A stretch of 64,000 bases of DNA from Halobaculum limi (GTDB taxonomy: Archaea; Halobacteriota; Halobacteria; Halobacteriales; Haloferacaceae): contig NZ_CP120468.1 of assembly GCF_029490015.1 (NCBI RefSeq), positions 1,054,001-1,118,000 on the forward strand, in the 5' to 3' direction. Both the position numbers and the translations under genes were made by a program. Position 1 is the stretch's first letter; every line of letters begins with the position of its first letter. This document shows, in pieces, positions 36,337 through 38,820 of the stretch. The notes under the pieces are model-generated. The model saw only the letters and a list, made by a program, of their open reading frames with translations. It was not told where the DNA came from and made no database searches.

Positions 36337-37401
36337 TCAGCGGCCGCGACGAAGTTCTTCGATGAGTTGTTCGATCAGTTCGCGCTGGCTGTCGAGGCGC
36401 TCGTTCTGCCGTTCGACCGCCTCCCGAAGCGCCGCGACCTCGTCGGCAAGGTCGTCGGTCGGTTCGGCTGGCTCGAACCCGGTGTCGCCGAAGGCGTCGT
36501 CGCTCGCGGTCTCAGAGGCCACGGCCGCGTCGGCGCCGGCGTCAGCCTGCGAGACGGCTGCCGTCGTCGACTCCTCGGCCACGTCGCCCACCTCGCCCGC
36601 GTCGGTTTCCTCGCCGGTGGCCAGCGGGTCCGTCCGCGTCCCGTTGTGCTCGTCGACCTCAGAGGGATCCGCCGAGAGCGGGTCCGGGCCGTCGCCGAAG
36701 TCCGTGCGGTCGACCGCCGCAGCGTCGACGGCGTCGTCGTCGGCTTCGTCCTCGCCTTCGGCCTCCGCGGAGAGGGCGCGGAACGCAGACAGCGAGTCGA
36801 CGCCGTAGTACGCCAGCAGCGCGCTCGTGAGCGTCTCTTCGATCTCACGAGAGCGGTCGTTCGGGGCTTTGAACCGCTCTTGGCGACCGTTCGCGGTGAG
36901 CACGAGCGTCGTCGCGTGGCTCCCTTTCTCGACTTCGAGGTCGGTCACGTCGTCGTAGTGGAACTCCTCGAAGTCGTCGTCCCAGACGGCCGCACCGACG
37001 TGTTTCACGAGGCGAGTCGAGGTGACGACGAGCGTGAGTTCCGAGAAGCGGAAGGTTCGCTCGACGGTCTCGCCCGGTTCGGTGATGCCCGAGGCGGCGA
37101 GGACGCCCGCGAGGACGGGGTGGAGGACTTCGTCGATCTTGCTTCGAGGGACGGAGAACGACTGACTCCCGTCGAGGCCGTACTCCAGCGTGAACTTGGC
37201 CTTGCGACGGCCCTCGGAGACGGCGACGCGTTCGGCGTCGTGGGCGTGTTCCTCGACGGACTCGTCGGAGAGCAAGCCTTCGGCGCGGTAGATGAGGGTG
37301 CGGGTCGGGGTGACGAACAGTTCGTCGTCCCCACCGAGGTGGACGCGAGCGACGGGGTCCTCGCCGCCCAGTTCCCCTCGGATCAGGTCCGGCAGACTCA
37401 T
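36337..37401 (-). CDS. Haloarchaeal protein with PH-like N-domain and coiled-coil C-terminus
   Basis: 354-aa protein. Residues about 1-200 are a beta-rich domain with two similar halves ('GDDELFVTPTRTLIYRAEGLL' and 'ELTLVVTSTRLVKHVGAAVW'), suggestive of PH-like/bacterial PH-domain units. About 205-310 is a long disordered Asp/Ala/Thr linker. The last ~45 residues form an amphipathic helix with coiled-coil periodicity ('EVAALREAVERQNERLDSQR', 'LIEQLIEELRR'). The ATG at 37401 is followed at once by 'SLPDLIRGELGGED'. Possibly an oligomeric scaffold; family name not recalled with confidence. Confidence 0.8.
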   Translation of the reverse strand: MSLPDLIRGELGGEDPVARVHLGGDDELFVTPTRTLIYRAEGLLSDESVEEHAHDAERVAVSEGRRKAKFTLEYGLDGSQSFSVPRSKIDEVLHPVLAGVLAASGITEPGETVERTFRFSELTLVVTSTRLVKHVGAAVWDDDFEEFHYDDVTDLEVEKGSHATTLVLTANGRQERFKAPNDRSREIEETLTSALLAYYGVDSLSAFRALSAEAEGEDEADDDAVDAAAVDRTDFGDGPDPLSADPSEVDEHNGTRTDPLATGEETDAGEVGDVAEESTTAAVSQADAGADAAVASETASDDAFGDTGFEPAEPTDDLADEVAALREAVERQNERLDSQRELIEQLIEELRRGR

Positions 37402-37559
37402 ACCAGCGTTTCGCCGTGGGCACGGCTTAAACCCGGCGGGTATGCTGTCCCCGTCGTCGCGCGTGCGTCGGACGCCGCCCGCCCGTGGGCGTGTCTCGGC
37501 GTGTCGCACCGACCGTGGATGAGAAGCTTCAAGAGTACGACCGCCCGACGTGGACGTGA

Positions 37560-37708
37560 GCCGGGGTGGCTTAGCTGGACATAGCGCCGCACTCATAGGG
37601 TTTCGAGATTCGGTGCGGAACGCCTTGGAAGCCTCCGCCCCAACGGGGCCCGCCGAGCCTCGTACCTGGGCTATGCGGAGATCGTGGGTTCGGAGCCCAC
37701 CCCCGGCA
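37560..37708 (+). tRNA. tRNA-Met(CAT), elongator, with intron
   Basis: Exons 37560-37597 and 37673-37708. The acceptor arms GCCGGGG (37560-37566) and CCCCGGC (37701-37707) pair fully, followed by A as discriminator. The anticodon stem is CCGCA/TGCGG (37587-37591 and 37674-37678), anticodon CAT at 37594-37596. The T arm is GTGGG-TTCGGAG-CCCAC (37684-37700). The CCA end is not encoded. An intron-bearing elongator tRNA-Met is a known haloarchaeal feature. Confidence 0.97.
37598..37672 (+). other. tRNA-Met intron (75 bases)
   Basis: Inserted between tRNA positions 37 and 38, the canonical archaeal site, and removed by the splicing endonuclease at a bulge-helix-bulge. The boundaries were set by requiring a seven-base anticodon loop and a full CCGCA/TGCGG stem. 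Confidence 0.85.
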
Positions 37709-37745
37709 TCGTTCTACGCGACACACCGTCCCCGTGAGTGGCCGC

Positions 37746-38390
37746 TCAGACGTTCGCTCGGATCAGTTTCTTCACGCCCCGTCGGAACCGCTCGGAGGCG
37801 GAACTCTGGGAGATGCCGAGTCGCTCGCCCAAATCCGCGAGCGAGACCGCTCGTGGGATGTCGAGATAGCCGCTCTCCACCGCCTCTAACAGCAGTTCCC
37901 GCTGTGGCTCGGTGAGCGTCGACTCGCCGGACGTCTGTTCGCTCGTCTGTTGATACATCCGCTCGAACGTGAACGGGATGTCGTGGTCGCGACAGAACTG
38001 GTACACCCGACGATACCCCTCCCGTGTCGGGAAGTGAACGCGACACCGCCACCCCTCTGCGGTCCCCGTCGCCGCCTCCAACACGCCGGCGACGTCGATG
38101 AGCTCGCTCATCAGGTTCGTCCGGTCGCCCTCCTCGGTGAACCGGACGCGATAGAGTCGACGATCCGGGACCGTCGCGAACAGCGTGAGGTCGGTGACGG
38201 TATCCAGACGGGCGACCGCCTCCTCGAACGCCACGAATTCGTCATCCGTCTCGGCACGCAACCAGAACAGCATTCGTGTGCCTGCGACGCCGTCGGTGTA
38301 CGTCTCCTCCCACTCGGCCTCGACGCGGGGAACCACGCGCAACGCCCCGCCGAGGATGGGGTGATCGATGGTGAATTCGCAGATCAACAT
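37746..38390 (-). CDS. HTH-10 (Bat-type) transcription regulator
   Basis: 214-aa regulator. Residues 1 to about 150 are a Bat-like sensor domain ('MLICEFTIDHPILGGALRV', 'RLYRVRFTEEGDRTNLMSELIDVAGV'). The C-terminal 55 residues are the HTH-10 DNA-binding domain: 'LTEPQRELLLEAVESGYLDIPRAVSLADL' with 'LGISQSSASERFRRGVKKLI' as recognition region. No PAS or GAF domain is attached. It is divergent from a damaged HalOD1 gene, with two perfect palindromes in the shared upstream region, so autoregulation is likely. The signal is unknown. Confidence 0.92.
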   Translation of the reverse strand: MLICEFTIDHPILGGALRVVPRVEAEWEETYTDGVAGTRMLFWLRAETDDEFVAFEEAVARLDTVTDLTLFATVPDRRLYRVRFTEEGDRTNLMSELIDVAGVLEAATGTAEGWRCRVHFPTREGYRRVYQFCRDHDIPFTFERMYQQTSEQTSGESTLTEPQRELLLEAVESGYLDIPRAVSLADLGERLGISQSSASERFRRGVKKLIRANV

Positions 38391-38419
38391 TCGGTAGTAC
38401 CTGATCCTATTCGGTGGTC

Positions 38420-38435
38420 ATAGTATATATACTAT
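38420..38435. promoter_or_regulatory. 16-base perfect palindrome
   Basis: ATAGTATATATACTAT is its own reverse complement. It lies 30 bases above the regulator start, so it covers the TATA position of that gene, and abuts a second palindrome. Good candidate operator. Confidence 0.6.
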
Positions 38436-38447
38436 CGAAATATTTCG
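38436..38447. promoter_or_regulatory. 12-base perfect palindrome
   Basis: CGAAATATTTCG is its own reverse complement and begins at the base after the 16-base palindrome ends. Two palindromes back to back are unlikely by chance in such GC-rich DNA. Confidence 0.55.
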
Positions 38448-38506
38448 GGTCTATGTGGATGTAGGCTGACGGCGTCAGAGAGGCGTGTACAAGGATCGCG
38501 AACGCG

Positions 38507-38820
38507 ATGAACAATAAGTCAATATTTCGACACGAAAGCCCACCGAATCCCTGCCGAGTCTGGCGGTCGTCACGGCGGTCGGGGCCGAAGCCGGGGTCGA
38601 GCTTAGCGACCTCAAACCGCCGCTGTACGAGGTGGTCGACCCCGATGCGCTGGACACGCTGTTTCAAGATACGACTGGCACTGTCTCCTTCGAGTACCAC
38701 GGTTCGGTCGTCAGCGTCGACCACACCAACGCCGTCACCCTAGCGTCGACCGACGACGGCGACACGCACCCGACCGACTCCACCTCCGCGGACGACGACC
38801 CACGGGCGCAGCGGCCGTAG
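38507..38820 (+). pseudogene. HalOD1 output-domain gene with apparent frameshift
   Basis: The frame ending at 38820 encodes a HalOD1 domain: 'SLAVVTAVGAEAGVELSDL', 'PPLYEVVDPDALDTLFQ' and 'TGTVSFEYHGSVVSV', then an acidic tail. Reading that frame upstream I find no ATG, GTG or TTG before a TAA at about 38515. A proper ATG at 38507 starts another frame, 'MNNKSIFRHESPPNP', that would join the HalOD1 frame after a one-base change near 38550. So the gene is either frameshifted (strain mutation or sequencing error) or restarts at the GTG at 38632, giving 62 aa without the domain's first half. Confidence 0.65.

Follow-up and report, generated by a model that had tools for sequence, protein, structure and literature searches.

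Genes and features of the locus

The window, a 64,000-nucleotide stretch of the Halobaculum limi genome, contains an HTH_10 regulator gene and a divergently oriented HalOD1 reading frame, and two adjoining palindromes lie between them (Table 1). The regulator protein was matched by the HTH_10 domain PF04967 (57.5 bits; cut-off 23.1) and by the BAT-associated domain PF15915 (37.2 bits; cut-off 25.8), while no PAS or GAF domain was matched in it. In the genome, 17 places match this HTH_10 protein.

Table 1. Features of the divergent locus, with positions in the window
Feature	Position	Strand	Basis
HTH_10 regulator with BAT-associated domain, 214 aa	37746..38390	-	Pfam domain matches
16-bp palindrome ATAGTATATATACTAT: TATA box plus flanks, symmetry unconserved	38420..38435	.	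sequence comparison
TATA box of the HTH_10 gene, TATATATA; 3 nt separate it from the 14-bp motif	38424..38431	-	sequence; spacing in homologues
14-bp conserved motif instance CCGAAATATTTCGA, oriented toward the HTH_10 gene	38435..38448	-	motif model
12-bp perfect palindrome CGAAATATTTCG, core of the candidate conserved inverted-repeat operator	38436..38447	.	de novo motif in homologous promoters
HalOD1 reading frame; no usual start codon ahead of the domain, a TAA at 38515-38517, and the ATG at 38507 out of frame	38518..38820	+	

The HalOD1 frame is irregular in this genome. After the TAA at 38515, no ATG, GTG or TTG was found ahead of the HalOD1 domain in its frame; an in-frame GTG at 38485, 36 nt from the 14-bp motif, is followed by the TAA, and the nearest ATG (38507) lies 58 nt from the motif. 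Because no in-frame start codon precedes the domain and this ATG is out of frame, the HalOD1 gene of the window is probably disrupted, or the assembly contains an error. On the other side of the regulator gene, Rfam matched a tRNA gene at 37560-37708, which was missed by ARAGORN and, judging from its length of 149 nt, probably contains an intron. This tRNA was the single Rfam match within 37400-38600, and an RNA element at the palindromes was therefore rejected.

An inverted repeat beside the TATA box of the regulator gene

A 16-base and a 12-base perfect palindrome, back to back in GC-rich surroundings, were described in an earlier note on this DNA, and both are present as described (G+C of the window, 67.6%). 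Perfect palindromes are not unusual in themselves, since their counts in the window do not exceed those of 100 first-order Markov simulations: 28 were found with a length of at least 12 bp (simulated mean, 46.8), and 3 with at least 16 bp (simulated, 4.46). The lengths are thus unremarkable; what sets the site apart is that the two palindromes abut and that the DNA here is rich in A+T. One abutting pair was found in the window when a gap of at most 5 nt was allowed, against 0.07 per simulation at a gap of at most 2 nt, and the sole 28-mer of the window with at least 80% A+T starts at 38418. In the whole genome, the 16-mer has one exact copy and two copies with 3 mismatches, and the 12-mer one exact copy and one place with 1 mismatch.

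The two palindromes differ in their conservation. The earlier note placed both over the likely TATA region of the regulator; it is the 16-mer that contains the TATA box of the HTH_10 gene. When three Halobaculum species were set side by side, the 16-bp symmetry was present in the species of the window alone and absent in the other two (G087 and G108), while the half-sites of the 12-mer and a TATA-like box 3 nt away were common to all three. The closest orthologue, in G087 (69% identity), has an intact divergent HalOD1 gene and carries CGAAGAACTTCG, including the CGAA-N4-TTCG half-sites, at the same place as the 12-mer. In G108 (Halobaculum litoreum) the pattern search found CCGAAATACTTCGA, and the element there is CGAAATACTTCG; its HTH_10 orthologue (L145 1039-1862) is a remnant cut down to a portion of the N-terminal half, and the candidate operator is kept together with an intact divergent HalOD1 gene.

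In a wider comparison, the 12-mer proved to be the H. limi version of an inverted repeat that is conserved with the consensus CGGGAATATTCCCG. Homologous HTH_10 regulators were found at E <= 1e-36 in 48 of the 391 genomes sampled from the class (21 of 86 genera). The class survey, a contig search and earlier family matches together gave 68 upstream regions, and the removal of 6 identical ones left 62 distinct regions. A palindromic motif search of these 62 regions yielded CGGGAATATTCCCG de novo from random seeds; its log-likelihood was 201, and none of 25 dinucleotide-shuffled sets exceeded 48. A score of at least 7 was reached by 39 of the 62 regions with close relatives excluded from training, and by 4.4% of 2076 control stretches under a model for which 57 of these regions served as the training set; the site in the window ranks third among all window positions under the 57-region model, which contained no Halobaculum sequence, and both kinds of model were seeded with the all-sequence consensus and are therefore not fully blind. 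In 32 of the 39 regions a TATA-like box starts exactly 3 nt from the motif (2 nt in 4, 4 nt in 1, none in 2), and the window locus is arranged in the same way, its 14-bp repeat being followed after 3 nt by the TATA box of the regulator. Control TATA sites numbered just 22, none with the motif, and are too few to weigh. In a profile anchored on 42 sites (effective number 29), TTTAT stands out strongly toward the regulator, and a TA step is conserved toward the partner.

Our comparisons indicate one operator plus a core promoter at the divergent pair, because the 12-mer matches a conserved repeat while the 16-mer holds the TATA box and its symmetry is missing in relatives. The double operator of the earlier note is thus not supported. 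The search of orthologous upstream regions that it suggested recovered the 12-mer element and, in the two Halobaculum loci, no 16-mer symmetry; its idea of an operator-like palindrome at the HTH_10 promoter, common to the divergent side, is borne out by conservation in related loci.

Divergent partners and local specificity

The gene facing the regulator was DUF7344-like in 41 of the 62 homologous loci and a HalOD1 frame in 3 (L001, L009, and L051). Partner genes were picked by a reading-frame search and a profile, and Pfam confirmed ten partner proteins, one of which, the HalOD1 protein of G108, is outside the 62. The motif was found in 36 of the 44 loci with a divergent DUF7344 or HalOD1 gene, against 3 of the 18 without one; L010 and L059, which rank among the nearest non-Halobaculum homologues, belong to the 8 paired loci that score below 7. 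In 31 of 41 cases, 36-40 nt separate the motif from the start codon of the partner, whereas the distance to the start of the regulator is variable; the count accepts any in-frame ATG or GTG within the first 45 codons and excludes the window. The conserved TA step falls about 28 nt before the partner start, where a weak TATA box would be expected if the transcript is leaderless. No intact partner starting at 36-40 nt was found in the window, and when 60 genomes were searched for HalOD1 (E <= 1e-12), one other place came up, in the same genome. The control of HalOD1 proposed in the earlier note is doubtful in this genome, because past the TAA at 38515 the HalOD1 frame has no usual start codon ahead of the domain.

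That the symmetry arose by chance in an A+T-rich core promoter, with no operator at all, is the least probable of the explanations we considered. The lack of an excess of palindromes of at least 12 bp in the window speaks for it, and it suits the 16-mer; for the 12-mer it is contradicted by the conserved motif, the fixed spacing, and the link to gene pairing.

Within the genome, the strict motif-plus-TATA pattern has 2 exact places, at the window HTH_10 gene and at a paralogue. In 11 Halobaculum genomes it has 6 exact places, all at these loci; the pattern was written from five of these six matches, so that the G108 site at 102696 alone is independent. Since the strict pattern is confined to these loci, the predicted operator is local by this criterion. 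The motif was not found at six other HTH_10 genes of the genome: their scores do not exceed 5.0, whereas the window site has 12.0 and that of the paralogue 15.5. Without the TATA box, the pattern matched 16 places in the genome and missed the window's own site, which ends in A. Fifteen of these were inspected: one is the promoter of the paralogue, and the other 14 fall inside open frames, of at least 295 codons in 12 cases, 208 codons in one and 113 codons in one (L183). The paralogous HTH_10 gene (G000:C1:1119981-1120607; 43% identity) is situated about 2 kb past the window end and 28 kb from the window regulator, and has a divergent DUF7344 gene and its own copy of the motif. The same two loci are about 28 kb apart in G087, and G108 has both sites. 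A plasmid search gave homologues all below 60% identity.

Candidate regulators of the probable operator and comparison with known systems

The HTH_10 protein is the most likely binder of the candidate operator, through which it would control its own gene and the divergent gene. A dimer formed by the neighbouring HTH_10 protein, or by the paralogue 28 kb away, would bind the 14-bp inverted repeat. One edge of this repeat is 3 bp from the regulator's TATA box, so that the repeat overlaps the TFB recognition element (BRE). The bound regulator could thus control the transcription of its own gene, blocking being the simplest mode. For the partner (DUF7344 in most genomes, HalOD1 in Halobaculum), the repeat immediately precedes a weak TATA-like sequence, and a regulator bound there could recruit TFB/TBP and activate. 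We infer the direction of control from this placement: an element that overlaps the BRE at the strong promoter and directly precedes the weak promoter fits autorepression with partner activation. Taken together, the 12-mer is probably the operator of a divergent promoter at which an HTH_10 dimer, own or paralogous, would control the regulator gene and could activate the partner, with the TATA box inside the 16-mer. We put forward more tentatively, as a possibility, that this is a widespread and as yet unnamed haloarchaeal module, in which a stand-alone BAT-HTH_10 regulator is paired divergently with DUF7344 or HalOD1, one 14-bp palindrome in the back-to-back promoter represses the regulator and activates the leaderless partner, and the partner acts as a co-regulator.

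Binding by another regulator, namely the DUF7344 protein where present, a paralogous HTH_10 protein, or an unlinked global regulator, seems unlikely. A DUF7344 member has a weak, sub-threshold ArsR-family match and could be the binder where it occurs, yet the Halobaculum locus has HalOD1 in its stead and keeps the element. The element next to the degraded HTH_10 gene of G108 and the related site in the paralogue's promoter also point to another binder, and the two exact strict-pattern places, both at HTH_10 genes, speak against a global regulator.

The half-sites of the 12-mer raise the question of a NarO-type site, which would make the promoter part of a regulon for oxygen or nitrate. Known counterparts are the NarO/DmsR-type HTH_10 regulators and CGAAYATDKTYG, a motif of haloarchaeal denitrification promoters (PMC10062603, PMC11218638), and a related CGAA-N4-TTCG motif is reported to be required for full nos and nor activity in denitrification promoters (PMC10062603). 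These half-sites, the same as in the motif mutated in the nos, nor, and nir promoters of H. mediterranei, are present in the window, but the centre differs from CGAAYATDKTYG by 3 mismatches (counted by eye), and homologous sites mostly have CGG/CCG and not CGA. Moreover, the CGAA-N4-TTCG frame occurs at 166 places in the genome (21 for the reversed control pattern), so that the half-sites alone mean little, and a NarO site on this basis alone was rejected. We therefore regard a NarO-type site as very unlikely. The genome-wide excess over the reversed pattern probably reflects codon usage.

No description of the HTH_10-DUF7344/HalOD1 pair or its motif was recognised, and no mention of DUF7344 was found, in the open-access literature searched, which does not prove absence. 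Haloarchaea carry many HTH_10 regulators, and to our knowledge few of these have a known DNA site. The fixed-geometry motif predicts a binding site and a local target for one clade, and makes the roles of DUF7344 and HalOD1 testable.

Among better-known members of the family, Haloferax NarO has a cysteine motif, and Bat acts via the bop UAS just upstream of the TATA box. The sequence of this UAS differs from the window motif, and Bat/bop is not a divergent autoregulatory pair; Bat is likewise an HTH_10 protein and, unlike the window regulator, has sensor domains. The NarO/DmsR system resembles the locus in its protein family and in a promoter element of 12 bp, an inverted repeat whose half-sites are CGAA/TTCG, and NarO and DmsR are described in the cited text as having no PAS and GAF domains (PMC11218638), similar to the window regulator, in which these were unmatched. 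It differs in that the window site has another centre (clade consensus CGGGAATATTCCCG), lies in a divergent gene pair at a fixed 3 nt from the TATA box of the regulator itself, and occurs in its strict form at no more than two gene pairs of this genome. CsmR of Haloferax is described with a different semi-palindrome adjoining the TATA box (PMC13286277). At the gvp locus, the GvpE activation sequences between gvpA and gvpD are adjacent to the BRE, and their close spacing is reported to be essential (PMC4390858). This is similar to the window locus, with an element between two back-to-back promoters and spacing that matters, whereas GvpE is leucine-zipper-like and uses two overlapping 20-nt UAS in place of a single 14-bp palindrome (PMC4390858).
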